A DNA stretch of 54,982 nucleotides from a virus: positions 1-54,982 of the IMG/VR virus record IMGVR_UViG_3300028800_000115; one strand, 5' to 3'. The notes under the pieces are model-generated. The model worked only from the letters and a program-made list of their open reading frames with translations. It was not told the DNA's origin and did no database searches. Position 1 is the first letter of the stretch. The number at the start of each line of letters is the position of its first letter. Below, one piece after another: positions 3,254-52,991 of the stretch. Made by a program: the position numbers and the translations under genes.

Positions 3254-4276
3254 ATGACCCTTCAGGCATCCGCCTACGCACTCGTCCATCCGAGTTTCGT
3301 CGAGCCGGAGATCATCGTCCAGCAAAGCCAAGTTTCCGGCTTCGTCGATTTGCTGGCCGAATCTCAGGTCCGCGTTCGGCTCGCCGAGGACGATCTTCTC
3401 GTCTACATCAAGAGCATGAACCTGCGCACCCGCATTGCGGCCGGCACCACCGGCTTCAATGAACTGCCGGGCGTCGACATCTCGATGTCGATGATTTCGA
3501 CCGCGACGTATCTCCTTCAGGTCGCCGCGCAATACAACCACCACGACACCGCGGCAGCGGCGCGGTGGGGCTTCTCGGCGCCGGAAGCCTACCGGCTCGG
3601 CATGTGGCAAGCGAACTTCCAGCTTGTCCGCGACGCCTGTCTCTACGGCATGAACCCGCAGAACGGCGAGGGCCTCATCAATGCCCCCGGCGCGACTTCG
3701 GTCAATCTGCCGGCGGACAGCAACGGCAACGACACCGTGCTGACCTACGACAACGGCCAGATGGCGTTCTTCCTGTCGCAGCAGATCCAGGCGATCAAAA
3801 CCCGGACCCTGCAGATGGGCGTCGGCCGCGAGTTCACGATCCTCGGCCCGCAGCGCACGCTCGGCAGCTTCGAATACAACGTCGTCCAGTTGGTGCAGTT
3901 CCAGCGCGAAGGCGCCGGCACCGCCTCGACCAAGGAGACGTTGCAGAAGATCATCATGGCGAACGGCGACACCCTGAATTGGGTGTACGACGACACCCTG
4001 ATCGGCAAGGGCAACGGCGGCGCTGACATGGTCATCCTCGACATGCCGAAGATCGTTCGCCCGACCACGGCATCCTGGAACACGAACGCCGCGGCGGCCG
4101 TGTCTCCCGGAAACGACACCTGCATCACGCAATACTCGGACATGGCGGCACCGCGAGAGATCATCTCGCCGGGCCCGCGCGGCATGACCGATGTGCTGCA
4201 GGAACTTCGCATCACATCCGGATGGGCCCCGCGCAGTGCGGCACTCACCCTGATTTCGATGCCCTACTCGAGTTAA
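3254..4276 (+). CDS. Major capsid protein, DUF2184-type
   Basis: The 340-residue product resembles the DUF2184 family, the capsid proteins of several contractile- and long-tailed phages. Supporting features are an N-terminal segment anchoring to VEPEIIVQQSQVSGFVDLLA, the central run of aromatic and Ala-rich helices around residues 85-125 (AQYNHHDTAAAARWGF), and a C-terminal strand region ending in ITSGWAPRSAALTLISMPY. Length and neighbours (prohead gene upstream, connector genes downstream) fit. A ribosome site (GGAGAAAG) precedes ATG 3254. It should be the most abundant virion protein. Confidence 0.75.
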   Translation: MTLQASAYALVHPSFVEPEIIVQQSQVSGFVDLLAESQVRVRLAEDDLLVYIKSMNLRTRIAAGTTGFNELPGVDISMSMISTATYLLQVAAQYNHHDTAAAARWGFSAPEAYRLGMWQANFQLVRDACLYGMNPQNGEGLINAPGATSVNLPADSNGNDTVLTYDNGQMAFFLSQQIQAIKTRTLQMGVGREFTILGPQRTLGSFEYNVVQLVQFQREGAGTASTKETLQKIIMANGDTLNWVYDDTLIGKGNGGADMVILDMPKIVRPTTASWNTNAAAAVSPGNDTCITQYSDMAAPREIISPGPRGMTDVLQELRITSGWAPRSAALTLISMPYSS

Positions 4277-28203: not shown

Positions 28204-28236
28204 GCCCCGCCTGGGAAACCAGTGCGGGGCCCTTTT
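28204..28236 (+). terminator. Intrinsic terminator after the late operon
   Basis: GCCCCGC-CTGG pairs with CCAG-(T)-GCGGGGC around a GAAA tetraloop, giving an 11-bp GC-rich stem with one bulged T, followed by CCTTTTAA. It ends the spanin operon and overlaps the TAA of the convergent minus-strand gene. The minus-strand side is followed by TTCTCTTCG, so it may stop both operons, more weakly for the minus one. Confidence 0.8.
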
Positions 28237-29092
28237 AATGTTGGCGGTGCTTCGAGTTTGCGTGCTGGTCAACGTCCCATTTGCTCGCAAAGCGGCGCTC
28301 GCAATATAGGCAGGCAAAATTCTTGGCGCGCGGCGTTAAGTCTCCCGACGAGTGCCCATGAGCCGCAGGTTTCCCTTCCCCCGGGTTTGCGGGCAATTTT
28401 GCCGTTACCACCAATCGGGTGGCGCGATCCTGGCGAATGTCTGCGGGCCAGAGGGGCTTTCTCGTCGGGAGTTCGTCGGCCTCTAAATCCTCGCCTTCGC
28501 TTTCGTCATAAGGCTCGGAGTTGTCGGCAATTACATCGTAGAGCGGGCGCGCATCTTCGCCGCCAATCGGCGCGTCGAGCGATAGAAGCCCGTATTTGAT
28601 CGGGTGCATCTTCAAGACGTTGCGAAGATACGGCGTAACGGACGCGGCCAGCTTGTCGCGCTCAATCTCTCCCGAGAGAAGAGCAACCATCATGTCCTGA
28701 CAAATATCGGCGCGTATCCATTCGGGCAACCCACGCGGGACTAGGCTGTTGATTAGCATAATGTCGGCGTGTTCATCGCGCGGGCGAATGATGTATGGGT
28801 AGGCCACAGCGAACGATTTTGCTTTCGGCACAATCACGCCGCGCAAAGCTACTCGCCATGACGGCGGCATCTTCAATCGCATGTCGTGTGCGCGCTGCGC
28901 CACTGTGCGGGCCTCGCGCCCAAGAACATCGGCGCTTTTCTCAAGATCAACACCGGACGCAGCTAGCACACGCACGTTGTATTCTTCAACGCCAGTCCAA
29001 TGAAGCCCCTTGTACTGCACAGCGCCAATGTAGCGCGGCTGTAGAGCAGCGGCCTCGGCCTTTGTCAAAATATATACGCTGCTATCGGCCAT
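28235..29092 (-). CDS. Sigma-factor-like regulator with C-terminal C2H2 zinc finger
   Basis: The 285-residue product shows three parts. Residues 30-75 look like a helix-turn-helix (VDLEKSADVLGREARTVAQR). Residues of about 120-190 resemble sigma region 2 and its linker: EWIRADICQDMMVALLSGEI, then YLRNVLKMHPIKYGLLSLD, then an acidic spacer. Residues 260-283 are a classic zinc finger, CLYCERRF, 12 residues to H, then H, and a histidine-rich end. It is the last gene of the minus operon from the 31.4 kb promoter. The sigma resemblance is my reading of the pattern; it might switch transcription between operons. Confidence 0.5.
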   Translation of the reverse strand: MADSSVYILTKAEAAALQPRYIGAVQYKGLHWTGVEEYNVRVLAASGVDLEKSADVLGREARTVAQRAHDMRLKMPPSWRVALRGVIVPKAKSFAVAYPYIIRPRDEHADIMLINSLVPRGLPEWIRADICQDMMVALLSGEIERDKLAASVTPYLRNVLKMHPIKYGLLSLDAPIGGEDARPLYDVIADNSEPYDESEGEDLEADELPTRKPLWPADIRQDRATRLVVTAKLPANPGEGKPAAHGHSSGDLTPRAKNFACLYCERRFASKWDVDQHANSKHRQH

Positions 29093-29107
29093 GTGGCCCT
29101 TCCTGTG

Positions 29108-29506
29108 TTAGCCGCGCGCGGCGATATAGCGGTCGATGGCGTCGGCAACATCGCGCGGGGTTACGTTCCTCGGGTCCTTGCCGTAATTCTCGTTAGCCGA
29201 AGTTCTGGACGCCGAAAAGAGCCGGTAAGAATCATCTTGCGAAAGCCCGAGCATCGCGCCGAACACTACGGTTCCGAACATTGGATTAACGCACGCGACT
29301 GCCTCGACCTCGGGCCATACCGCGCAGCCCACGCCGATGGCGCATCCCACAGTGCCGCATTCATTTCGGTGGAAAGCCTCTCGAAAATTCCACACATGCG
29401 ACGGAGGCATCTGCCGCCGCAACAACCACGACAGCCCCTCAAGGCTTGGCTTGCTCAGATCGGGCTTCGTCTCGGCTGGCGTGTATGTCGTTTGGTCTAA
29501 TGGCAT
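29108..29506 (-). CDS. Conserved-looking phage protein, unknown function
   Basis: Start ATG 29506, behind an AGGAAGGGCC cassette; the frame is open further up but noncoding. The 132-residue product has a Cys-rich middle (NECGTVGCAIGVGCAVW), FGAMLGLSQDDSYRLF and an ending TPRDVADAIDRYIAARG. The CGTxGCAIG and LGLSxxxxxxLF pattern is like a recurrent family of phage proteins without known function. No membrane segment. Confidence 0.5.
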   Translation of the reverse strand: MPLDQTTYTPAETKPDLSKPSLEGLSWLLRRQMPPSHVWNFREAFHRNECGTVGCAIGVGCAVWPEVEAVACVNPMFGTVVFGAMLGLSQDDSYRLFSASRTSANENYGKDPRNVTPRDVADAIDRYIAARG

Positions 29507-29525
29507 GTGAGAGGCCCTTCCTGTG

Positions 29526-29810
29526 TCAGCGTGAGAGCGCGGCGTTGGCGCGAGAGGCCACATCGCGGAGTGTTTCGCGCAGCCGCTCGGTTTCGGATTC
29601 CATCTCGCCATTCAACAGCGCGACAAGACGATGCGCGAAGGTCTTTTGCTCTTCGGTCATGTCTTGAAGATCAGGCGCGGGCAACAAGCCGTAGCCACAG
29701 TCGAGGATCGCGCGCCGATCTGGACCGTAAATATATCGCCCATTCGTCGTGTAGCTCTTATCACGGGCGGCGAGCGTTGCGCCTTCTGGTGCTTTCAGAT
29801 GCGGGTTCAT
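29526..29810 (-). CDS. Small hypothetical phage protein
   Basis: The 94-residue product starts MNPHLKAPEGATLAARDKS and ends in a helical stretch (ESETERLRETLRDVASRA). RRAILDCGYGLLPAPDLQD is a central feature. It has cassettes on both sides (29507 and 29811). No family recognised. Confidence 0.45.
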   Translation of the reverse strand: MNPHLKAPEGATLAARDKSYTTNGRYIYGPDRRAILDCGYGLLPAPDLQDMTEEQKTFAHRLVALLNGEMESETERLRETLRDVASRANAALSR

Positions 29811-29828
29811 TGAGAGGCCCTTCCTGTG

Positions 29829-30143
29829 TCAGTGAGTGCTGGCGAGACGGATGCAAGTTTCGATCCCGTCGCGGAGTTTTATAAGACCTTCGCGGCGAGA
29901 CTGCGCCGGGTGTTCTTGGATCGTCTTTCCTATAACGCCGGAGATTTGCTTTGCCTCCGTCAACGTGAAAGCGTGATGCTCGCCGTCGATGCTGATACAA
30001 ACGCCTTTATCGTCCCCAGACACGGCCTCGCCAAGGCGCATTTCTATGTCGGCTGTCGGAGGCGCGGTTCGGTATGCGGATAGAAAATCGAGGACGCGGG
30101 TGAGCGGGCTTCCGCTGGTCGTAACTGTGAATTCGTCACTCAT
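29829..30143 (-). CDS. Small hypothetical phage protein
   Basis: The 104-residue product is mixed alpha/beta, with a beta-type part VCISIDGEHHAFTLTEAKQ and a helical tail (LIKLRDGIETCIRLAST). ATG 30143 follows a variant cassette (GGAAGGGCC). No signal or membrane segment, no recognised family. Confidence 0.45.
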   Translation of the reverse strand: MSDEFTVTTSGSPLTRVLDFLSAYRTAPPTADIEMRLGEAVSGDDKGVCISIDGEHHAFTLTEAKQISGVIGKTIQEHPAQSRREGLIKLRDGIETCIRLASTH

Positions 30144-30153
30144 GCGGCCCTTC

Positions 30154-30363
30154 CTATCTGATCCCCAAGCCGAACCGCTTGGCTAAATCTTTCTGCAATT
30201 CGATGTTGTTCATCACCGCCGCAAGACGCTCACCCTTCTGCGGGCTAGACGGCTCCTTGGCGACAGAATCGAAGTGACGGATGTTCGCTTCCAACACCTC
30301 GATCAAATCCTTGAGCGCCTTCTTGTAGTGCCGCGCCTTCTTTGCATCTTCGCTCAATGGCAC
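30154..30363 (-). CDS. Small helical hypothetical protein
   Basis: GTG 30363 is preferred over the long upstream open frame because it directly follows a TAAGGGCC cassette. The 69-residue product is helical and basic: KKARHYKKALKDLIEVLEAN, then IELQKDLAKRFGLGIR. No family recognised. It lies in the cassette-joined operon. Confidence 0.45.
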   Translation of the reverse strand: MPLSEDAKKARHYKKALKDLIEVLEANIRHFDSVAKEPSSPQKGERLAAVMNNIELQKDLAKRFGLGIR

Positions 30364-30374
30364 CTGAGAGGCCC

Positions 30375-30557
30375 TTATTGGTTCAAGTGTGCGCGAATTT
30401 TTCGGCCCATCTCGGCCGAGAGAAGATAACCACCATTGCCAGCATAGACGGCGGGCGTCTTGTCGAGTTTTGCTTTTAGAAATTTGCGGCACTTCGCTGC
30501 GACTGGCATCGCGTCGAATGCCTCCGCGCATAGCAAGAGAAGTTCTTTGTCGGTCAT
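30375..30557 (-). CDS. Small hypothetical protein
   Basis: ATG 30557 follows a GAAGGGGCC cassette variant; the longer frame upstream overlaps the neighbouring gene. The 60-residue product is MTDKELLLLCAEAFDAMPV then basic and aromatic residues (VYAGNGGYLLSAEMGRK). No family recognised. Confidence 0.45.
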   Translation of the reverse strand: MTDKELLLLCAEAFDAMPVAAKCRKFLKAKLDKTPAVYAGNGGYLLSAEMGRKIRAHLNQ

Positions 30558-30570
30558 CTGCGTGGCCCCT

Positions 30571-30966
30571 TCAGGTTTGTGCGTCGGACGCTGCGGTCGG
30601 GGTATCCGGCGCAGCACCATCTTGGCTTTCGTCCTCGTGGATCATCTCATCGTCCAAGGCAGAGAGAACCAGCAATTTCGCCACGCGCTTGTTTGCCGCG
30701 ATCAGGTAAGCCTCGATCTGCATGGCGGTATGAAACACCATGCTCATATCCAGCGGCATCATGTTGCGCCCCTCAAGCTTGTATTGCTGATAGAGCGTGC
30801 CGTCTTGAATGGTTGCGATGTCGTGATACTTCATCGCCATATTGAGCGCGATGGCGGCGACGCCGATGCAAGGGCCGATCTGGGCGTTATGCACTTCTTC
30901 CGGCATTCCTTCCAAAGCATCCGCCTTGTTGAACGTCATGCTTTTTGGTTGGTCGGATTGTTCCAT
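30571..30966 (-). CDS. Hypothetical phage protein
   Basis: The 131-residue product starts MEQSDQPKSMTFNKADALE, has a Met-rich helical middle (IALNMAMKYHDIATIQDG, MMPLDMSMVFHTAMQIE) and an acidic tail. A full cassette (30967-30990) precedes its start. No membrane span, no recognised family. Confidence 0.45.
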   Translation of the reverse strand: MEQSDQPKSMTFNKADALEGMPEEVHNAQIGPCIGVAAIALNMAMKYHDIATIQDGTLYQQYKLEGRNMMPLDMSMVFHTAMQIEAYLIAANKRVAKLLVLSALDDEMIHEDESQDGAAPDTPTAASDAQT

Positions 30967-30987
30967 GGTTCAGCGGCCCTTCCTGTG

Positions 30988-31158
30988 TCAGCCGCGTTCA
31001 ATTACGCGGCGCGCGATGTTGATCCACGTTGACCTGATCTCGGCCTGAGTTTCTCCGTCGATTCCTTCCCAGACATTTTGCAATCCGCCCCTGTCCGAGA
31101 GATCGAGCAAGATACAGTCAACGATGTATTCGGCCTGTAGTCCTACAGCGGTTGGCAT
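30988..31158 (-). CDS. Small hypothetical protein
   Basis: ATG 31158 follows a TAAGGGGCC cassette variant; the longer frame upstream is rejected as overlapping. The 56-residue product contains AEYIVDCILLDLSDRGGL and ends NIARRVIERG. No recognised family. Confidence 0.45.
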   Translation of the reverse strand: MPTAVGLQAEYIVDCILLDLSDRGGLQNVWEGIDGETQAEIRSTWINIARRVIERG

Positions 31159-31168
31159 GAGAGGCCCC

Positions 31169-31372
31169 TTACGGATGTGTCGGGGTGAGAGAAACGCGGT
31201 AGACGCCCGCGCCAAGATCGGCCAGCACGAAATCATACAGCCGACCGCGAGCAAGGATGTTGCCGCCGGTCTCTAGCAGCATCTCGCGCGCATCTTCCTG
31301 GCTCATGGTCGTATTGGCCCACGGCCCTGCGGAAGCGAGGAAGTTCAATTGTCGGCTGGTTTCCTTGTTCAT
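31169..31372 (-). CDS. First gene of the minus operon, small hypothetical protein
   Basis: The 67-residue product starts MNKETSRQLNFLASAGP and contains MSQEDAREMLLETGG. Its ATG is 6 bases from a -10-like element, so the transcript would be leaderless and the usual ribosome site is absent. No family recognised. It heads the nine-gene operon running to 28235. Confidence 0.5.
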   Translation of the reverse strand: MNKETSRQLNFLASAGPWANTTMSQEDAREMLLETGGNILARGRLYDFVLADLGAGVYRVSLTPTHP

Positions 31373-31378
31373 GCTCTA

Positions 31379-31406
31379 CAAATAAACCGCTCACGCAGGA
31401 AGTCAA
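31379..31406 (-). promoter_or_regulatory. Minus-strand promoter of the 31.4 kb divergent region (leaderless)
   Basis: On the minus strand, TTGACT (31406-31401) is followed after 16 bases by TATTTG (31384-31379). The A of the start codon at 31372 is the seventh base after the -10, the expected transcription start. The arm GTCAATA (31402-31408) inverts with TATTGAC in the opposing promoter. Confidence 0.6.
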
Positions 31407-31435
31407 TAGAAACTTTCCTATTAGGTTCAATCGTA

Positions 31436-31463
31436 TTGACAGCCGTTTTAACGGGCGTATAGT
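31436..31463 (+). promoter_or_regulatory. Plus-strand promoter of the 31.4 kb divergent region (leaderless)
   Basis: TTGACA (31436-31441), a 16-base spacer and TATAGT (31458-31463) are followed by 6 bases and ATG 31470, so the transcript should start at or next to the start codon. The geometry is the same as on the other strand. A GAAACTTTC palindrome (31410-31418) between the promoters could bind a regulator. Confidence 0.7.
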
Positions 31464-31469
31464 TCGGCC

Positions 31470-31664
31470 ATGAACCTGATCGCCGATATTGCAAAAATAG
31501 ACCGCTGGTTGAAAGCCGTGAAGATGGCCGAATCCCGGCTCGGGTTGCTGGCGTGCGCCAATCCCAAAGCCGTTGCCCGCGTCCGGTCTGGGGTGGCGAG
31601 GCTCGCCACGCTGCGTCAGGTTATGGAATACATTGCCGCCAACCCGCCCAAGAGGCGCAGATAG
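31470..31664 (+). CDS. First gene of plus operon, small basic hypothetical protein
   Basis: The 64-residue product is MNLIADIAKIDRWLKAVKMA then helices and a basic end (NPPKRRR). ATG 31470 has no ribosome site and lies 6 bases after TATAGT, so it is probably translated from a leaderless message. It overlaps the next open frame in another phase. No family recognised. Confidence 0.5.
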   Translation: MNLIADIAKIDRWLKAVKMAESRLGLLACANPKAVARVRSGVARLATLRQVMEYIAANPPKRRR

Positions 31665-32076
31665 GGCCAAATCGACATACCTCTATCTGGCCACGGACGG
31701 GAAGGCCCATAAGATCGGGATAGCCTCTGACGTGCATGTCCGGCGCTATACGTTGCAGTTAGACAACAAGCGCCCGGTTCGGATGCTCAGGTCGTGGCAT
31801 CGGCCCCGAGACGCCCAAGCTATCGAGACGATTATTAAGCACCATTTTTCGGATCAAGTCTGCCAAGGGCGGGAGTGGTTCACGGCGTCGAAAGACGAAA
31901 TATTGTTTCAAATCAACCGGATCGTTAAAATCCACGACCAATACCATGCGGATCGGTTCAAGCGAGCAAAACGGGTCAAGGCTCTCCGGGTTTCAATCTC
32001 GACGATCTATGCCAATTTTCAGGTTAGCCGCGATGGCGAAAAAGTCGTCATTAAGCGCAGGAAGAAAACCGGATGA
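31633..32076 (+). CDS. T5orf172/GIY-YIG-type protein with uncertain start
   Basis: The frame 31573-32076 encodes TYLYLATDGKAHKIGIASD, IETIIKHHFSDQVCQ and QGREWFTASKDEILFQINR, matching T5orf172-type GIY-YIG domains. There is no ATG in a sensible place. TTG 31633 is the nearest usual alternative start; in a cassette-like context (TAGGGCC) the codon where a start is expected reads AAA. It may use TTG, be coupled to or frameshifted from 31470, or have lost its start. The protein may be a defective nuclease. Stop overlaps the next ATG. Confidence 0.5.
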   Translation: MPPTRPRGADRAKSTYLYLATDGKAHKIGIASDVHVRRYTLQLDNKRPVRMLRSWHRPRDAQAIETIIKHHFSDQVCQGREWFTASKDEILFQINRIVKIHDQYHADRFKRAKRVKALRVSISTIYANFQVSRDGEKVVIKRRKKTG

Positions 32077-32864
32077 CGCGGGTGCTTGCATGGTTCTCTT
32101 GCGGCGACGCCAGCGCAGCGGCGGCATACTTGGCCGCGTGTAAATACGGCGACAATAGCGCTATCGGTTTCCAGGTTTGCTACTGCGACACCTTCGCCTA
32201 TGAGCATCCCGACAATCGCCGGTTCTTTGGCGACGTTGAACGCTGGCTTGGCTTCGACATAAAGATTCTGTGGTCGAAAGAGTACCGGGATATTTATGAC
32301 GTGTTCGAGCGGACGCGCTGGCTGGTCGGAATCGGCGGCGCACGCTGCACGACAGAACTGAAAAAGAACGTCCGCACGGCATATCAGCGCGTCGGGGATA
32401 TTCACGTCTTTGGCTTCACGGCTGACGAGCAACATCGCGTTGACCGCTTCCGCCGAGAGAACCCGGACTTGCTTGCCGAGTTTCCACTGATCGACGCCAA
32501 GATGACGAAGCGTGATTGTCACGCGATGGTGCGCGCTGCCGGGATCGAACTGCCGATGATGTACCGGCTCGGGTACAAAAATAATAACTGCATCGGGTGC
32601 GTCAAAGGACAGTCGGGCTACTGGAACAAAATCCGGCGAGACTTCCCCGAGGCGTTCGACAAGATGGCGAAGATGGAGCGCACCTTGAACGCGGCAATCT
32701 GCAAGCGCGAAGGCGTCAAAGACGGTAAGCGGTGGCGTGAGCGCGTGTTCCTTGACGAGCTTCCGCCAGATGCGGGACGGTACGAAGCCGAGCCTGACAT
32801 TGAGTGCGGCGTCTTGTGCATCCACGAGCCGACGCCAAATACGTTATCAATCACCCAGGATTAA
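32073..32864 (+). CDS. PAPS reductase-family ATP-pyrophosphatase-like protein
   Basis: The 263-residue product begins with a PP-loop-type motif FSCGDASAAAAYLA (S9 to S14), as in PAPS reductase and DndC-type enzymes. Cysteine-rich parts follow: GARCTTELKK, NNCIGCVKGQSGYW with a C-x2-C, and CGVLC at the end. This pattern is common in phage proteins of this family of unknown substrate, which may activate or thiolate a nucleic-acid target. ATG overlaps the upstream stop. Its C-terminal codons and stop form the first plus-strand junction cassette. Confidence 0.65.
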   Translation: MTRVLAWFSCGDASAAAAYLAACKYGDNSAIGFQVCYCDTFAYEHPDNRRFFGDVERWLGFDIKILWSKEYRDIYDVFERTRWLVGIGGARCTTELKKNVRTAYQRVGDIHVFGFTADEQHRVDRFRRENPDLLAEFPLIDAKMTKRDCHAMVRAAGIELPMMYRLGYKNNNCIGCVKGQSGYWNKIRRDFPEAFDKMAKMERTLNAAICKREGVKDGKRWRERVFLDELPPDAGRYEAEPDIECGVLCIHEPTPNTLSITQD

Positions 32865-32874
32865 GGGAGCGGAA

Positions 32875-33501
32875 GTGGCGAGGCGCGGATTTAACGCTGT
32901 GGATATGATCGTATCGCAGGGGGCGACCGTGAGCGCGGCGGCGTTGGCCGCTGGCGTGAGTCGTCAGAGAGTTTATCAAATCCTAAAGAGGATTGGCGTT
33001 AAAGCAGGCATGGCGATAACTAACGACGCGCTCGCGCGCTTTGCCGCGTATAAAGATATTCTGCCGCTACCGACTGGTGGGTTCACTATTGCTGGACACG
33101 GAGAAGCTACGCGCGCCGGAATGATGGCAGCAAAAGCGCGCGGTATCCACATTGGGCGGCCCAAAAAGTTTACAGCTTCGGTGAGTCGTCTTGTCAGGTG
33201 GAGACTAAGGCGCGGCGATCAGGTCGGTGATATTTCGCGTGGGCGGGAGTTTCAAAATCCCTCATCTATGATAATTTCTCGCGCCGATATGTTGACGGTA
33301 AATACATCGTCAAACGCAAACTTTGAAGGGAGCGCGGTCAGTGTCGGACCAGAAGCTAGAAGAAATCCGCAGGATATTGTCCAACATGGCCGAGGCCCAA
33401 CGTGTTCATGTCGCGGGCTGCATCTGCCCGCCAACTTCCGAACAGACTTGCGGCAATCAACTTTGCCCGCGCCGTCCAATTCAGTCGTCAATCGTGATTA
33501 A
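32875..33501 (+). CDS. HTH/AT-hook regulator-like protein, probably frameshifted near 33240
   Basis: The start is GTG 32875 behind a cassette (AGGGAGCGGAAG). The product has an N-terminal HTH (AALAAGVSRQRVYQILKR), then ATRAGMMAAKARGIHIGRPKKF, the hinge sequence of serine recombinases and an AT-hook-like GRPKK, then SRLVRWRLRRGDQVGDISR. As read, it continues as improbable sequence to 33501. The adjacent frame gives WAGVSKSLIYDNFSRR, then YVDGKYIVKRKL and stops at 33326 exactly at a cassette. A single missing base near 33240 would join the parts. I take it as one 150-residue HTH protein broken by a frameshift; only the nuclease part of a recombinase is absent. Confidence 0.5.
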   Translation: MARRGFNAVDMIVSQGATVSAAALAAGVSRQRVYQILKRIGVKAGMAITNDALARFAAYKDILPLPTGGFTIAGHGEATRAGMMAAKARGIHIGRPKKFTASVSRLVRWRLRRGDQVGDISRGREFQNPSSMIISRADMLTVNTSSNANFEGSAVSVGPEARRNPQDIVQHGRGPTCSCRGLHLPANFRTDLRQSTLPAPSNSVVNRD

Positions 33502-33505
33502 GTAA
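33341..33505 (+). CDS. Small cysteine-rich hypothetical protein
   Basis: GTG 33341 follows GAAGGGAGCGCGGTCA, the cassette after the corrected stop of the previous gene. The 54-residue product is helical then Cys-rich (CICPPTSEQTCGNQLCP), perhaps a metal site with four cysteines. It overlaps the nominal end of the previous open frame, supporting the frameshift reading. No family recognised. Confidence 0.45.
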   Translation: MSDQKLEEIRRILSNMAEAQRVHVAGCICPPTSEQTCGNQLCPRRPIQSSIVIK

Positions 33506-33517
33506 AGGAGCGGAAGC

Positions 33518-33706
33518 ATGGCATTAATTTTAGCGGGCGTAATTTTCATAGCGACGCTGGCGTTCTGCGCGCTGATGGCTTTCGCTGCGGGAATGAGCGA
33601 CAGCCAGAGCACATCATCTAATAACGTGGTGCTGACTTTCGTTACTGGGACGATCTTAGCGGTCCTGGTGGGGGCATCCCACTGGATGCCGCACGTTGGC
33701 TGGTAG
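33518..33706 (+). CDS. Small two-span membrane protein
   Basis: The 62-residue product has two hydrophobic segments, MALILAGVIFIATLAFCALM and VVLTFVTGTILAVLVGASHW. ATG 33518 follows AAAGGAGCGGAAGC, a full cassette. No known family; size and topology could fit a membrane accessory protein. Confidence 0.5.
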   Translation: MALILAGVIFIATLAFCALMAFAAGMSDSQSTSSNNVVLTFVTGTILAVLVGASHWMPHVGW

Positions 33707-33715
33707 GAGTCCAAG

Positions 33716-33910
33716 ATGCCATATGATCCGTCGCCTATCGAACTACTCGCGGGAGAGATTGCAAGCGACGTATTCCCGTGGGTGCCTGAGCAGACGCTCG
33801 ATAAGCTGACGGCGATCAGGGCGGCAATCGAGCGGCGTCTCAAATGCGCTGAAGGTCGCGACTATATCGCGCGCATCGCCGCAATGTCATCGTCAACCCC
33901 AACCGAATAA
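33716..33910 (+). CDS. Small hypothetical protein
   Basis: The 64-residue product contains SPIELLAGEIASDVFPWV and RAAIERRLKCAEGRDYIA and ends in SSSTPTE at a cassette. A GGAGTCC site precedes ATG 33716. No recognised family. Confidence 0.45.
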   Translation: MPYDPSPIELLAGEIASDVFPWVPEQTLDKLTAIRAAIERRLKCAEGRDYIARIAAMSSSTPTE

Positions 33911-33920
33911 CGGAGCCGGA

Positions 33921-34169
33921 ATGGTCGATCTGTCAATTCCGGCCTTCCAGGGTGACGCTGACGCGCTCGCGAAACTGACGCTCCAACAGCGCGAAGCGTT
34001 TGAGGCCTGGATGAAAGAACTCGACGCCGAACACGCGAAGGCCGGTTATCCATACGGCGAGCAAAGCCTATGGAAGGCGACAGGCGTTGAATGCTGGCTT
34101 GGCTATTTCAATGACGGCTATGAGCCGGATTACGCCATGTCCGAAGATATGTCTCAGGCAAGCGACTAA
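33921..34169 (+). CDS. Small hypothetical phage protein
   Basis: The 82-residue product starts MVDLSIPAFQGDADALAKL and contains QREAFEAWMKELDAEHAK, then YFNDGYEPDYAMSEDMS. It follows an ACGGAGCCGGA cassette site. Acidic, soluble, no recognised family. Confidence 0.45.
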   Translation: MVDLSIPAFQGDADALAKLTLQQREAFEAWMKELDAEHAKAGYPYGEQSLWKATGVECWLGYFNDGYEPDYAMSEDMSQASD

Positions 34170-34179
34170 CGGAAATCCC

Positions 34180-34344
34180 ATGCGCGAAGGTTGGCTTCGT
34201 CATTCATTGGAACACGCCCGCATCTACACCGAGGAAGTGGAGAAGGCGCGCGTGAGGACGAACCGGCGCATGAAGCGATACGAGAAAGAGCATCCGCTCG
34301 GGCCGGAAGAACCCGAAACCGATCATCAACACCTAGATTTTTAA
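34180..34344 (+). CDS. Small charged hypothetical protein
   Basis: Start ATG 34180 follows ACGGAAATCCC. The 54-residue product is highly charged and helical (IYTEEVEKARVRTNRRMKR, then KEHPLGPEEPETDH), with its end running into a cassette. The longer upstream frame is rejected. No recognised family. Confidence 0.4.
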   Translation: MREGWLRHSLEHARIYTEEVEKARVRTNRRMKRYEKEHPLGPEEPETDHQHLDF

Positions 34345-34353
34345 GGAGCCGGT

Positions 34354-34581
34354 ATGCGCGCACCATCTAGACTATGGCTATTACCGATACTTGCGGCACA
34401 GGCATGGGTGATGCTGGCGACAGAAGCATCGCATTGGAGGCGCGACCCTCACTGGAACGCCTCTCAGCGGGCATTTGATAGCGGCGATTACGCGACCTTC
34501 ACGCGAGAGGCGGCAGAGTGGAAAGCCGCCCCACGCTTTTGCCCGCTGATCGTAATTTGTTCACCATCAACCACAGAATAA
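34354..34581 (+). CDS. Small protein with N-terminal hydrophobic segment
   Basis: The 75-residue product has a hydrophobic N-terminus (LWLLPILAAQAWVMLATEA), perhaps a membrane anchor or signal, then a charged region (FTREAAEWKAAPRF) and a hydrophobic end. AAGGAGCCGGT precedes ATG 34354. No recognised family. Confidence 0.45.
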   Translation: MRAPSRLWLLPILAAQAWVMLATEASHWRRDPHWNASQRAFDSGDYATFTREAAEWKAAPRFCPLIVICSPSTTE

Positions 34582-34593
34582 CGGAGCGGCACC

Positions 34594-34767
34594 GTGCCCA
34601 ACATGGCTTTAGCGTTCTTCGGTGGCTTCGGCGCTGCTGTCGGAATTATCATCATGGTCCTTTTGACCGGGCAGACATTCGGTCAGCGGTGTGATCGTAT
34701 GTTCCCGTCCGATCCGCTCGCCGCCGATCGGTGCGTCCATCAACTCAATCACGGCATCGAGCCGTAG
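34594..34767 (+). CDS. Small membrane protein (57 residues)
   Basis: Starting at GTG 34594 after a CGGAGCGGCACC cassette site, this short frame encodes MPNMALAFFGGFGAAVGII, continuing IIMVLLTGQTFGQ, a single membrane span, then CDRMFPSDPLAADRCVHQ and a stop (TAG 34765) that lies in the next cassette. The fit of both ends to cassettes supports it despite its size. No family recognised. Confidence 0.5.
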   Translation: MPNMALAFFGGFGAAVGIIIMVLLTGQTFGQRCDRMFPSDPLAADRCVHQLNHGIEP

Positions 34768-34779
34768 AAGGGAGCCGTC

Positions 34780-35010
34780 GTGGGTGCTATCGACAACATG
34801 GTGGACATGCACGGCAATCTGCCGAAGTTTCTGCCAGGCGAGAGCGTTATCTGCTACGGCAAACATCGCGGCGTCGTGGTTAAACAGCGCCAGTCATACG
34901 ATGGCCCGGGCATCGATTGGTTCTGGGGGATGGTCGAAGTTAAAGACGAAGATGGCGAGATTCACGTCGTCCATAATTGGCAATGTCGTCACGAAACAGA
35001 ACGGAACTAA
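34780..35010 (+). CDS. Small hypothetical protein
   Basis: GTG 34780 follows AAGGGAGCCGTC. The 76-residue product is beta-like (SVICYGKHRGVVVKQRQS, then WFWGMVEVKDEDGEIHVVH) and looks like a compact barrel. No family recognised. A TAAGGAGC cassette leads to the next gene. Confidence 0.5.
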   Translation: MGAIDNMVDMHGNLPKFLPGESVICYGKHRGVVVKQRQSYDGPGIDWFWGMVEVKDEDGEIHVVHNWQCRHETERN

Positions 35011-35017
35011 GGAGCAG

Positions 35018-35752
35018 ATGCGCGTCCTCGATCTATTCAGCGGCATAGGCGGTTTCTCGCTTGGCCTAGAGCGCGCGGGGATGTGGACTGTGGCGTTCTG
35101 TGAGATTGATCCGTTCTGCCGTAAAGTCTTGGCGAAGCATTGGCCCGAGGTACCCTGTTACGATGACATCCGAACCCTCACCGCTGAGCGGCTCACCGCA
35201 GATGGAATTACTGCCGATACAATCTGCGGCGGATTCCCCTGCCAGGACATCAGCACAGCAGGGAACGGCGCAGGGATCGACGGTGAGCAATCGGGTTTAT
35301 GGCGCGAATATGCCCGACTTATTGGCGAGATACGACCGCAGCACGTCATTGTGGAGAACGTCGCAGCATTGCTTGGGCGGGGGCTTGGACGAGTTCTCGG
35401 AGACTTGGCCGCGCTCGGGTACGATGCGGAGTGGCATTGCATTCCAGCTTCCGCCGTTGGTCTACCTCATGAGCGAGATCGCGTGTGGATTATTGCCAAC
35501 GCCGAGAAAGGACCGGGCTTATCAAGCATACTCATCGCCGGGCTACGCACCTTCCCTCACCCAATATCTAACTGGCAAGATTGGGCGGGAGAACAATGGC
35601 CTGAAACCGAATCCAGAATTTGTAGAGTTGATGATGGGATTCCCGATCGGTCACACCGAATTGAAACCCTCGGAAACGCCGTCGTCCCGCAAATCCCCGA
35701 GATCATCGGGCGAGCGATAATGCAAATACATCATCAATCCTCGAATACATAG
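35018..35752 (+). CDS. DNA (cytosine-5) methyltransferase
   Basis: Start ATG 35018 after AAGGAGCAG. The 244-residue product has C5-methyltransferase motifs: DLFSGIGGFSLGLERAG (I), catalytic GGFPCQDIS with C75 (IV), VIVENVAALLGRG with E113-N114-V115 (VI), PHERDRVWIIA (VIII-like) and LGNAVVPQIPEIIGRAI (X). The target-recognition region is very short. It adds methyl groups to cytosine, probably to protect phage DNA or as the substrate for later base modification. A second protein-like frame overlaps it (see the separate entry). Confidence 0.85.
   Translation: MRVLDLFSGIGGFSLGLERAGMWTVAFCEIDPFCRKVLAKHWPEVPCYDDIRTLTAERLTADGITADTICGGFPCQDISTAGNGAGIDGEQSGLWREYARLIGEIRPQHVIVENVAALLGRGLGRVLGDLAALGYDAEWHCIPASAVGLPHERDRVWIIANAEKGPGLSSILIAGLRTFPHPISNWQDWAGEQWPETESRICRVDDGIPDRSHRIETLGNAVVPQIPEIIGRAIMQIHHQSSNT
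35100..35720 (+). CDS. Overlapping alternative-frame ORF inside the C5-methyltransferase gene
   Basis: In the frame one base off from the methyltransferase, an open frame of up to 206 residues runs almost the whole gene. A better start may be ATG 35163, with a GAGG upstream. It contains SPARTSAQQGTAQGS, DLLARYDRSTSLWRTSQ, FSETWPRSGTMRSGIAFQL, GLLPTPRKDRAYQ and NPEFVELMMGFPIGHTELK. These look like a recurrent phage-protein family I recall near or overlapping such methyltransferases. It could be a true overprinted gene, or merely a frame shadow of conserved methyltransferase codons. I cannot decide without selection analysis. Confidence 0.35.
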   Translation: MRLIRSAVKSWRSIGPRYPVTMTSEPSPLSGSPQMELLPIQSAADSPARTSAQQGTAQGSTVSNRVYGANMPDLLARYDRSTSLWRTSQHCLGGGLDEFSETWPRSGTMRSGIAFQLPPLVYLMSEIACGLLPTPRKDRAYQAYSSPGYAPSLTQYLTGKIGRENNGLKPNPEFVELMMGFPIGHTELKPSETPSSRKSPRSSGER

Positions 35753-35761
35753 GGAGCGGAA

Positions 35762-35836
35762 GTGGCGAATTGGTTCTATCTCGCTGGCTCGGTCTGCTTC
35801 GTGCTCGGCACGATTATCAACATGGTGGCACGTTGA
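35762..35836 (+). CDS. 24-residue membrane microprotein
   Basis: GTG 35762 follows a full AGGGAGCGGAAG cassette. The frame encodes MANWFYLAGSVCFVLGTII (first residue read as Met), continuing NMVAR and stop, a single hydrophobic span. Its TGA overlaps the TTG start of the next gene, so it may couple its translation. Its size makes it uncertain, but the cassette supports translation. Confidence 0.5.
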   Translation: MANWFYLAGSVCFVLGTIINMVAR

Positions 35837-36654
35837 GCGTTCGCATCCTCCAAGGTAACTGCCTCGACGTGCTGCGGACGCTGCCCGATGAATCCGTGCA
35901 TTGCATCGTCACGTCGCCCCCGTACTTCTGGCTGCGAGACTACGGGTGCGAGGGCCAGATCGGGCATGAGCCGGACGTGGCAAGTTTTATCGCCATCATT
36001 GGCGACGTGTTTGATGGGGCACGGCGCGTCCTGCGGGCCGATGGTGTTCTGTGGCTCAACCTCGGCGATAGCTACTACAGCGGCAACGGTCAGCCGATGG
36101 GCCGCGACCCGAAGTCGTCGTCGCGCAATTTCTCCCGCGGCAAACTCCGCCCTCTCGATGTTGGTGGGTGGGACATTCCAAAGAAAAGCTTGCTCGGCAT
36201 TCCTTGGCTCTGCGCTCTTGAATTGCAGCGCCGCGGCTGGACATTGCGATCGGATATCATCTGGTGCCGCTCGACCGCGCTGGCCGAGCCGTCCGTTACT
36301 GATAGACCTGGGCGGCAGCACGAATATCTGTTCCTACTCTCAAAGTCTCGCCGGTACTTTTTCAACAAGGCCGGGAACCCAGAGGCAAGCGTCTGGCATA
36401 TTGCCCACGAGCGAAACGTCAAAGGTCACAACGCCGCTTTCCCCGAAGAACTGGTCGAGCGTTGTATCGCCACTGGCTGCCCGCCGGCGGGAACCGTACT
36501 CGATCCATTCGGCGGATCGGGAACGTCTGGCCTTGTCGCAGATCGAATGGGACGCGACGCCATCCTGATCGAACTAAACCCGGAATATGCCGCGATGGCC
36601 GAGCGCCGGATTCGCGGCGACGCGCCAATGTTATCATCAATCACCACAGATTAA
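35833..36654 (+). CDS. DNA methyltransferase, N4-cytosine/N6-adenine type
   Basis: The start is TTG 35833, overlapping the stop of the microprotein gene; the upstream frame overlaps it wrongly. The 273-residue product has motif IV SPPY at residues 28-31 (TSPPYFWLRDYG), DILW-type helix WTLRSDIIWCRS and motif I DPFGGSGTSGLVADRMG (from D224). The SPPY variant points to N4-cytosine, but N6-adenine enzymes cannot be excluded. Order IV before I is the beta class. No restriction partner is seen, so it may be protective or regulatory. Confidence 0.8.
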   Translation: MSVRILQGNCLDVLRTLPDESVHCIVTSPPYFWLRDYGCEGQIGHEPDVASFIAIIGDVFDGARRVLRADGVLWLNLGDSYYSGNGQPMGRDPKSSSRNFSRGKLRPLDVGGWDIPKKSLLGIPWLCALELQRRGWTLRSDIIWCRSTALAEPSVTDRPGRQHEYLFLLSKSRRYFFNKAGNPEASVWHIAHERNVKGHNAAFPEELVERCIATGCPPAGTVLDPFGGSGTSGLVADRMGRDAILIELNPEYAAMAERRIRGDAPMLSSITTD

Positions 36655-36665
36655 CGGAGCGCCTC

Positions 36666-37046
36666 GTGGATAGCACGCCGATTCCGAAAGAAGTCTTGGA
36701 GCGAGCGCGGCGCGTTCTGTGTCGTCGCATGGGCGCGTGCGTTGTTTCTGCCATGGCGGATACCGATACGGACTTTGCCACGATTGCGGCGCGGCTCAGT
36801 ACGTCAGAGCGTGTGGTGTCGGGCTGGCTCGATACGCTCATTAGCGGGAGCGCAATATCGCTCGACAAGATTTCCGACTTGCTCTTTGCGATGGGCGCAG
36901 AGATGGAATTTTCTATCATCCCCGCAAACCCATCACGAAACCCGAAAACGAATAGGGAGCGCCCGTGCCGTACACCTACAGAGAACACCGCGAATTACTC
37001 CAAGACGTTGACCGGCGATTCCTTGAGAACGAGCCGGACCAAGTGA
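36666..37046 (+). CDS. HTH-like hypothetical protein overlapping next gene
   Basis: GTG 36666 follows ACGGAGCGCCTC. The 126-residue product has helical EVLERARRVLCRRMGACVV and an HTH-like stretch FATIAARLSTSERVVSGWLD, then SLDKISDLLFAMGAEMEFS. The annotated frame overlaps the next gene by 82 bases, while the cassette stop TAG at 36953 lies in another frame. A 1-base indel near the 3' end may have lengthened it. XRE-like DNA binding is possible. Confidence 0.5.
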   Translation: MDSTPIPKEVLERARRVLCRRMGACVVSAMADTDTDFATIAARLSTSERVVSGWLDTLISGSAISLDKISDLLFAMGAEMEFSIIPANPSRNPKTNRERPCRTPTENTANYSKTLTGDSLRTSRTK

Positions 37047-37240
37047 AGCCTGGAACGTGCGGCGCGTGCGTGTCATTCGACCCTCCGCAGAATGGACTGC
37101 TGTGGCGCAAGGTCACGCATCCGGTGGCGCTTGACGCTCGGATCGAAGGCTGGTGCAAAAACGGCGTAGCGTGTCTCGGGGCAGTTCTGCGAACGGCCCG
37201 CGACAGCACTTGCAAATACTTCGCCAAACGAGAGATTTGA
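36965..37240 (+). CDS. Small cysteine-containing hypothetical protein
   Basis: GTG 36965 follows AGGGAGCGCCC. The 91-residue product starts MPYTYREHRELLQDVDRRF and contains GTCGACVSFDPPQNG, WCKNGVACLGAVL and STCKYFAKREI, five cysteines that might bind metal. It is the last gene of the plus operon; its stop is followed by a cassette copy with no gene after it. Confidence 0.5.
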   Translation: MPYTYREHRELLQDVDRRFLENEPDQVKPGTCGACVSFDPPQNGLLWRKVTHPVALDARIEGWCKNGVACLGAVLRTARDSTCKYFAKREI

Positions 37241-44832: not shown

Positions 44833-44912
44833 AGGTATCCTCCAATTGCCGCGGCGGCGAGCCCGATCGCCAGCGCGAACGTAAATTTTCGAAGCGTCCA
44901 ATCGGCTGTCAT
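44829..44912 (-). CDS. 27-residue membrane microprotein, first gene of the minus operon
   Basis: ATG 44912 follows GCCGGAGACCACG. It encodes MTADWTLRKFTFALAIGLA, continuing AAAIGGYL, a single membrane span, and its TGA overlaps the next ATG. Short but with a good SD, good coupling and a sensible span. Function unknown. Confidence 0.5.
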   Translation of the reverse strand: MTADWTLRKFTFALAIGLAAAAIGGYL

Positions 44913-44938
44913 CGTGGTCTCCGGCTGCGAATTTCGTG

Positions 44939-44967
44939 ACGCTATGGCAAACCTAATCGTTTGGCAA
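44939..44967 (-). promoter_or_regulatory. Possible minus-strand promoter of the 45 kb control region
   Basis: On the minus strand TTGCCA (44967-44962), 17 bases and TAGCGT (44944-44939) form a weak promoter pair upstream of the microprotein gene. TGGCAA repeats overlap it. The -10 is poor, so confidence is limited; regulation by the Cro-like protein is possible. Confidence 0.35.
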
Positions 44968-44970
44968 TCC
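44945..44970. repeat. Direct repeat TGGCAAACC / TGGCAATCC, candidate operator
   Basis: Two 9-base copies differing at one base start 17 bases apart (44945 and 44962), about one and a half helical turns, inside the control region. This looks like a repressor operator half-site pair, perhaps for the Cro-like product of 45017 or the XRE protein of 40220. Confidence 0.45.
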
Positions 44971-44981
44971 AAAAATTTCAT

Positions 44982-45009
44982 TTGACGAATTTATTTCCTA
45001 GCGTACTGT
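44982..45009 (+). promoter_or_regulatory. Plus-strand promoter of the early region (leaderless)
   Basis: TTGACG (44982-44987), a 16-base spacer and TACTGT (45004-45009) are followed by 7 bases and ATG 45017. This matches the layout of the 31.4 kb promoter, so the Cro-like gene may also be leaderless. Confidence 0.6.
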
Positions 45010-45016
45010 GCCGCGC

Positions 45017-45217
45017 ATGGCAGATCATCCCGACGACGCTTTAATTGAAGAACTCGGCGGAACCGGCGCCGTCGCCCGACTTTGCGAAATCACCGCCGGC
45101 TCGGTTTCCGAATGGCGCGCGAAGGGAATCCCGACGCCACGCCGGTTCGAAATCGCCGTGCGGCTGAAGCGCGCCGGCAAGCCAATCCCTAAAGCCCTGA
45201 AGGGCTACGCCGCCTAA
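45017..45217 (+). CDS. Cro/YdaS-like HTH regulator
   Basis: Start ATG 45017; a GTG at 45008 overlaps the -10 box. The 66-residue product contains LIEELGGTGAVARLCEITA and GSVSEWRAKGIPTPRRFEI, a Cro-like helix-turn-helix, with a basic end. It lies directly at the divergent promoter and is the first gene of the plus early operon, where a Cro-type repressor is expected. Confidence 0.65.
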   Translation: MADHPDDALIEELGGTGAVARLCEITAGSVSEWRAKGIPTPRRFEIAVRLKRAGKPIPKALKGYAA

Positions 45218-45255: not shown

Positions 45256-45843
45256 ATGGCACGCACTCTAAACAGACAATCGGCCGCCGAACGCAAAACC
45301 CGCGGCGCCGACGGGAAGGCCGATTCGGCGGACCCCGAGCGCGCGCAGATCGTCGGGCACAACGCCAAGGCGCGGCGGGCGATGTATCGCGACAAGCACC
45401 GCGAGTTGACCGCGATCGAGGCCAAGGAAGACGATCTTCGCGTCAAGATGAAGGCGTTCGGCAAAGAAAAGTCCAACATCTATCGCGAGGTAAAGTCCGA
45501 ACTTGGCGTGTCGCGGACAGACTTCGAAGTCATGCGCCGCGTCGTCCAGTTGAGCAAGGACGAGCGCGAAGAAACCGTGAGCCATTTCCAGGAGATATAC
45601 GAATCTCTTCGCCCTGGCGAGCAGATGTCGTTTTTGCAGGACACGGCCGCCGAACTCACCGCCACGGCTCGCATCGAGATTCATGCCGCTGGTGTCGCGG
45701 CCGGGAAGGCCGGGAAAAATCTTTCCGATTGCCCGCACGAAGACGGCGAGGCCGCCGAATTGTGGCAGAACGGGTGGACGGCTGCGCAGCGCGAAATGGC
45801 CGAAGGTCTCGGCGGCGGTCAGGAACACGCCGGAACAGCCTGA
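45256..45843 (+). CDS. Phage protein with Rmf-like C-terminus and GapR-like middle
   Basis: The 195-residue product has a basic coiled N-terminus, a GapR/DUF2312-like helical pattern (KSNIYREVKSELGVSRTDF, EVMRRVVQLSKDEREE), then a C-terminal stretch resembling ribosome modulation factor: AAGVAAGKAGKNLSDCPHE and AAELWQNGWTAAQREMAEG. It might bind DNA or ribosomes; the two parts are my pattern match only. Good SD (GAGGGG) upstream. Confidence 0.5.
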   Translation: MARTLNRQSAAERKTRGADGKADSADPERAQIVGHNAKARRAMYRDKHRELTAIEAKEDDLRVKMKAFGKEKSNIYREVKSELGVSRTDFEVMRRVVQLSKDEREETVSHFQEIYESLRPGEQMSFLQDTAAELTATARIEIHAAGVAAGKAGKNLSDCPHEDGEAAELWQNGWTAAQREMAEGLGGGQEHAGTA

Positions 45844-51991: not shown

Positions 51992-52227
51992 GCATCCCGG
52001 AGATCACCGCAGAAGATATCGCCGAAAATATTCTAGCTCCGGAAATTGAATCCGCGCTCTATGCGTTGATCGTGAATTCCGGCCCTATCCGATACGACGA
52101 TGCTGGCCTCGCGAGAATCCACAATGCCGCGCGCAAGGTTTTTGACGGGATGAGCCTTGGCGACCTAGATGGGCTGCGTGCCCGCGCCGACGATGAAATC
52201 AAGAAATTATTTGGCGAAGACCGATGA
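51988..52227 (+). CDS. Small hypothetical protein
   Basis: The 79-residue product starts MSIPEITAEDIAENILAPE and contains RIHNAARKVFDGMSLGDL. Acidic and helical. ATG overlaps the previous stop. No recognised family. Confidence 0.45.
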   Translation: MSIPEITAEDIAENILAPEIESALYALIVNSGPIRYDDAGLARIHNAARKVFDGMSLGDLDGLRARADDEIKKLFGEDR

Positions 52228-52991
52228 CCGCGCTCGACATCGCCATCGTCGTCCCGTCCCGCCGGCGCGCCCACAACATGCCGCTCATTCGCGAATTGCT
52301 TCCGACCGCGGTGATCTGCATCGAAGACGAAGAGGCGCGCGACTATGCCGGCATGGTGCCGGAGAGCAATATCCTGCTCCACCCGTCGCTGCCGAACGCG
52401 GCCGCGGTGCGGAATTGGATGCTCGAGCACGTCGAACAGCCGATCCTGGTGATGATCGATGACGACTTCTGCGGCGTGAAGGTCACGACCGGCTCGAGGC
52501 GCTTCATCACCGATCCCGACGAAATCCTCGCCATCATCGAAAACGCGGCGCGCTGCTGCAATGATCTCGGGCTCGGCGCGTTCTGCTTTTCAGGCACGCC
52601 GAACACCACCATCATCCGGCCCGATGAGCGGCCGATTTATCCGACGCAACCCGTCTTTCGCGTCTTCGGCGTCATGGGCCCGGCGCGGCATCGCAAGTGG
52701 CGCGTCGATCTGCCTGGCCGCGCCGATGTCGACTGGACGCTGCGCACCCTGAAGCTTGACCGCTGCGTCTATGCCGACATCCGGTTTTTCTTCGACTGCG
52801 GTGCCGTCTTCAGCGGCCGCGGCGGCGCCGTCGGCCAGATATCGCCGGAGCAATTCGACAACTCGAGCCGCGAACTGCGGCGGACCTGGGGCCGCTCGCT
52901 GTCGTTCAAGGCGCCGGCCTACGTCAAGAAGCGCGAGGTCTCGAGCATCAGCATCCGGGTGTCGCGGACGAACAAGACGGCGCAGAAATGA
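52224..52991 (+). CDS. Glycosyltransferase resembling TET-associated (TAGT) family
   Basis: The 255-residue product starts ALDIAIVVPSRRRAHNMPL, has a DDD-type metal motif D79-D81 in ILVMIDDDFCGV, RNWMLEHV before it, and later RADVDWTLRTLKLDRCVYA and DIRFFFDCGAVFSGRGGAVG. This order matches TET-associated glycosyltransferases, which glycosylate 5-hydroxymethylpyrimidine in phage DNA. No TET oxygenase is seen in the window. It overlaps its upstream gene and lies 1.2 kb before the UDP-galactopyranose mutase. The alternative is a surface glycan enzyme. Confidence 0.6.
   Translation: MTALDIAIVVPSRRRAHNMPLIRELLPTAVICIEDEEARDYAGMVPESNILLHPSLPNAAAVRNWMLEHVEQPILVMIDDDFCGVKVTTGSRRFITDPDEILAIIENAARCCNDLGLGAFCFSGTPNTTIIRPDERPIYPTQPVFRVFGVMGPARHRKWRVDLPGRADVDWTLRTLKLDRCVYADIRFFFDCGAVFSGRGGAVGQISPEQFDNSSRELRRTWGRSLSFKAPAYVKKREVSSISIRVSRTNKTAQK

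Follow-up and report, generated by a model that had tools for sequence, protein, structure and literature searches.

The 97-bp gap at 31373-31469, which lies between a leftward operon (28235-31372) and a rightward operon (31470 to about 37240), raises the question of how two divergent sets of phage genes are started and controlled and how their first genes are translated. The window, i.e. the whole stretch of DNA analysed, is one viral contig (G000, 54982 bases) with the tailed-phage genes for sheath, baseplate, RecT and a DnaB-like helicase. We consider it reasonably probable that the gap holds two divergent early promoters under the control of an operator, with their regulators translated from leaderless mRNA. 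This reading builds on what can be taken from the sequence, namely the promoter boxes, their spacing, the absence of Shine-Dalgarno (SD) ribosome sites, the start of the right-hand gene and the predicted helix-turn-helix (HTH)-type fold of its product. The features are collected in Table 1.

Table 1. Coordinates of the features of the divergent region at 31 kb, its operons and the related site at 45 kb.
Feature	Position	Strand	Remarks
Remaining leftward operon	28235-31158	-	8 genes; SD at every start (GGAAGGGCC-type)
First leftward gene	31169-31372	-	67 aa; no SD; predicted mRNA 5' end A31372
-10 box TATTTG, leftward promoter	31379-31384	-	weak; 16-nt spacer; 6 nt to ATG31372
-35 box TTGACT, leftward promoter	31401-31406	-	read from sequence
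Inverted repeat GTCAATA ... TATTGAC	31402-31440		arms over both -35 boxes; centre 31421
Palindrome GAAACTTTC	31409-31417		4-bp arms; unremarkable by chance
Weak palindrome CCTATTAGG	31417-31425		exactly on centre 31421, midway between promoters; candidate operator
-35 box TTGACA, rightward promoter	31436-31441	+	read from sequence
-10 box TATAGT, rightward promoter	31458-31463	+	16-nt spacer; 6 nt to ATG31470
First rightward gene	31470-31664	+	64 aa; predicted HTH regulator; no SD; predicted mRNA 5' end A31470
Remaining rightward operon	31665-37240	+	MUG113/T5orf172 ORF, PAPS-reductase-like, small genes, two DNA methylases
Third promoter, same kind	44982-45009	+	TTGACG 44982-44987, 16-nt spacer, TACTGT 45004-45009, 7 nt to ATG45017
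Cro gene	45017-45217	+	Pfam P22_Cro PF14549; no SD; predicted leaderless

The initial annotation had described both strands as carrying a TTGAC -35, a spacer of 16 bases, a -10 (TATAGT or TATTTG) and six bases to the ATG, and these coordinates and spacings proved correct. Sigma-70-type promoters were scored on 12 consensus bases, ending 5-8 nt before the start codon, for all 4404 ATG, GTG and TTG codons of the window on both strands. With 11/12 bases the promoter of ATG31470 ranks at the top of the 4404 (the runners-up reach 9), and its score was matched by none of 5000 shuffles of the 60 nt upstream. The rightward promoter is therefore solid; a better one was not found within 150 nt upstream of ATG31470. 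Likeness to a promoter might also arise by chance in an AT-richer gap, the real promoters lying elsewhere, and the general promoter scan of the region indeed gave no excess over shuffles (7 matches vs 5.5 expected). Since the rightward site is the best match of that scan as well as of all start codons, and since the lack of an SD coincides with it, we regard chance likeness as extremely unlikely.

The leftward promoter, taken alone, is marginal. It scores 8/12 (top ~1.2% of the 4404 start codons; shuffle P = 0.066) with a weak -10, it was not called by the general promoter scan, and within 150 nt upstream of ATG31372 two other sites, about 121-123 nt away, tie with it at 8/12. TTGACT and TATTTG could thus be partly a product of chance, and only the rightward promoter would then be leaderless, the leftward transcript starting further upstream or a downstream start codon being used. 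We consider this rather unlikely, since the left site shares the 16/6 geometry of the right promoter, ATG31372 has no SD that could serve a leadered start, and the coding signal of the gene runs through its first 22 codons, its codon usage resembling that of trusted phage genes right from the beginning. Moreover, scores of at least 8 at both ends of the 97-bp gap have a shuffle P of 0.0014. It is mainly the identical geometry and the missing SD that make the leftward promoter credible. The earlier claim of divergent promoters with two leaderless transcripts has, accordingly, good sequence support on the right and moderate support on the left.

That neither first ATG has a ribosome site, as previously stated, was confirmed by the anti-SD pairing energies computed for 27 hand-checked (curated) gene starts. 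ATG31372 and ATG31470 reach -2.0 and -2.4 kcal/mol and a third start, ATG45017, 0 kcal/mol, whereas the remaining 24 lie between -3.5 and -8.0 kcal/mol, all with an SD. The three SD-less starts fall below the threshold used for S. meliloti in strength (-3.45 kcal/mol, PMC3616915). A promoter score of at least 8 at leaderless distance is found at 3/27 curated starts, which are exactly the SD-less three, and the other 24/27 score 6 or less, in a set that is not independent for ATG45017, which was chosen by its promoter score. The signal of the leaderless TA-led class is a -10-like TANNNT some 10-12 bp before the start codon (PMC3160421). TATAGT, which occupies the stretch from 12 to 7 nt before ATG31470, and TACTGT, from 13 to 8 nt before ATG45017, fit this signal; TATTTG of ATG31372 fits in position but lacks the final T.

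At each of the three SD-less starts, a C precedes the ATG and the A stands 7-8 nt after the -10. This is an ordinary position for initiation, and a variation of 1-3 nt in the start site is known to occur. Transcripts with heterogeneous 5' ends, or with leaders of only 1-5 nt, that are translated by non-SD initiation would not be strictly leaderless, and the G at -2 in the left gap TAGAGC could serve such a start. Since C(-1)A(+1) at the ATG reads as the best initiator 5-9 nt from the -10 at both 31-kb sites, we hold short leaders to be improbable.

A strong ribosome site had been claimed for every following gene. This applies to the starts that were checked, which in the rightward operon are of the SD type (A)AGGGAGC/CGGAGC, however, not to the T5orf172/MUG113 ORF after 31664, which has no clear start or SD. 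This ORF (31640-32076, +), which follows the HTH gene, is in the +1 frame and has no ATG, GTG or TTG near the start of its domain; the equivalent ORF of a related viral contig (L007) occupies the alternative shifted frame. Possible reasons are initiation at a TTG within gene 1, a fusion of the HTH and nuclease-like domains by frameshifting, or a sequence error. Start-site motifs recur in a strand-specific manner in both operons, CACAGGAAGGGCC(TCTC) at 28235-31158 (-) and (A)AGGGAGCGG or TAACGGAGC at 32875-36965 (+), and we take them to resemble start-associated sequences of some mycobacteriophages. Some longer upstream stretches are also repeated (32836-32881 and 35723-35768 are 78% alike). 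Elsewhere, the product of 52224-52991 (+) matches the PHROG beta-glucosyl-HMC-alpha-glucosyltransferase (E 4.6e-09), which together with the two DNA methylases at 35018-36654 hints at DNA modification.

The start at ATG31470 is supported by the alignment with four homologues (51-58% identity). AlphaFold predicts a four-helix bundle for the product with confidence (pLDDT 91). The fold matches are weak: Foldseek places 434 Cro nearest, at an E of 2.2 that is not significant, and VIA-align, with Z values of 5-7, includes several HTH regulators at Z about 5-6. No Pfam match was found. The predicted structure supports an HTH-type regulator, to which we give no family. The first leftward product has no Pfam match either, its best PHROG match has an E of 0.48, and no relative of the gene was found in named phages or IMG/VR viral contigs.

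The GTCAATA/TATTGAC inverted repeat reported for this gap is present, with perfect 7-bp arms at 31402-31408 and 31434-31440. Its symmetry is largely explained by the -35 boxes, since each arm contains or overlaps one. The palindrome GAAACTTTC noticed between the arms is also present; having arms of only 4 bp, lying 8 bp off the symmetry centre and being unremarkable by chance, it was rejected as an operator. The initial annotation had missed CCTATTAGG. The dyad at 31421 amounts to 14/23, just over the 95th percentile of shuffle maxima (13), so that CCTATTAGG is a modest operator candidate.

The third SD-less start, found in this analysis, belongs to a Cro gene that heads another rightward gene set. 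Its product scores 33.2 bits against Pfam P22_Cro, above the curated cut-off of 30.2, and no relative was found among viral contigs. Picked using its promoter score, ATG45017 is supporting rather than independent evidence; nevertheless, that a Cro gene of this genome also has a leaderless-type start strengthens the reading of the transcripts as leaderless. The divergent neighbour, ATG44912, has an SD (-6.6 kcal/mol), and a possible promoter precedes it, the -10 ending 26 nt before the ATG. Between the P22_Cro gene on the right and this small SD-bearing protein on the left lies TTTGGCAATCCAAA, with perfect 5-bp arms; this second divergent region (44912-45017) is probably the lytic control region. 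Directly after the putatively leaderless cro, the gene at 45256-45843 (+) encodes a C-terminal ribosome modulation factor (RMF) domain (PF04957, above cut-off). Leaderless initiation might conceivably be a class switch, the regulators of early operons being leaderless and all other genes using SD, and the phage, with its RMF-domain protein, might in this way make ribosomes more or less prone to 70S initiation and adjust how much regulator is made relative to other early proteins; we consider this very unlikely.

Homologues of gene 31470 were found in four distantly related viral contigs (L004, L005, L007 and L008). Three of them have TTGTTA-N17-TATGCC upstream in common, and L007 has TTGACA-N17-TAGATT. 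In all four, 22-33 nt separate the -10 from the start, which makes the leader about 16-26 nt long, and an SD-like sequence precedes the start (e.g. GGGAGG in L004). L004 and L005 also have a leftward promoter on the divergent side, likewise with a leader, and L008 ends on that side. Since the homologues have leaders and SD, leaderlessness appears to be specific to this phage and not conserved; the promoter before the regulator gene is retained, and this phage differs in its leader. The next gene is, by eye, a T5orf172/MUG113-like ORF in L005 and L007 too. The leftward operon of L004 encodes an AP2-domain protein (3347-4081, -; weak match, below cut-off), the N-terminal part of which looks, by eye, like an RNA polymerase sigma-type protein. 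When the retrieved relatives were scanned for strong promoters at leaderless distance, three contigs had one score-9 site in common, with TATAAC, a weak -35 (TGGAGA) and a GTG start, and another contig had one further site. In 11 capsid-related contigs (L013-L023, 63-77% identity), no homologue of the 31470, first leftward, 28235-29092 or 45256 genes was found, an empty answer that without a positive control shows little; the control region can thus not be traced among the structural relatives. A profile search of bacterial genomes with gene 31470 and a capsid search for host prophages gave no match.

Taken as an operator-controlled divergent pair, the gap might work as follows. A host sigma-70-type RNA polymerase would start in both directions from the back-to-back promoters, with start points on the A of each ATG, so that the first gene of each operon would be leaderless and the later genes would be translated via their SD sites. 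The 64-aa HTH protein probably binds the symmetric DNA between the -35 boxes and would control both promoters in a Cro-like manner, the gap serving as a putative early control region. The benefit suggested in the initial annotation, production of the first genes early or under stress, finds no support in these results. The region is a clear example, at the sequence level, of symmetric leaderless control by an uncultured phage, in which a leader has been lost or gained between distant relatives. If the start sites are confirmed, it could provide a system for asking if leaderless initiation brings phage regulators any advantage.

In phage lambda only the cI side is leaderless, and the arrangement of cro and of the operators OR1-OR3 is unlike that of the present region. 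The lambda cI mRNA from PRM resembles the transcripts predicted here in being a phage regulator mRNA that begins at the AUG, according to citations in PMC8630535 and PMC9031893. A close parallel, with leaderlessness on both sides, is immB of phage PY54, where RACE placed the beginning of both the cI and the cro mRNA at the AUG (PMC4488713). As in the present gap, promoters diverge from a short intergenic region (116 bp in PY54), with a palindromic operator between them in PY54; unlike here, where the left product is without a known relative, one side of PY54 encodes the CI prophage repressor, and cI of PY54 has a second, far stronger promoter, located at the 5' end of cro (PMC4488713). The paaR2/ydaS pair of prophage regulators in a cryptic prophage of E. 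coli O157:H7 similarly diverges from an intergenic region of 97 bp, and paaR2 was found to be leaderless by RACE and protein mass; in contrast to the pair described here, only paaR2 is described as leaderless, and it lies in a toxin-antitoxin operon (PMC8630535). In bacteria, 171 leaderless mRNAs have been mapped in S. meliloti (PMC3616915) and 375 in Caulobacter, where they are translated about like leadered ones in normal growth (PMC4117421). The arrangement in this phage is real but ordinary in kind, leaderless phage regulators having already been shown experimentally.
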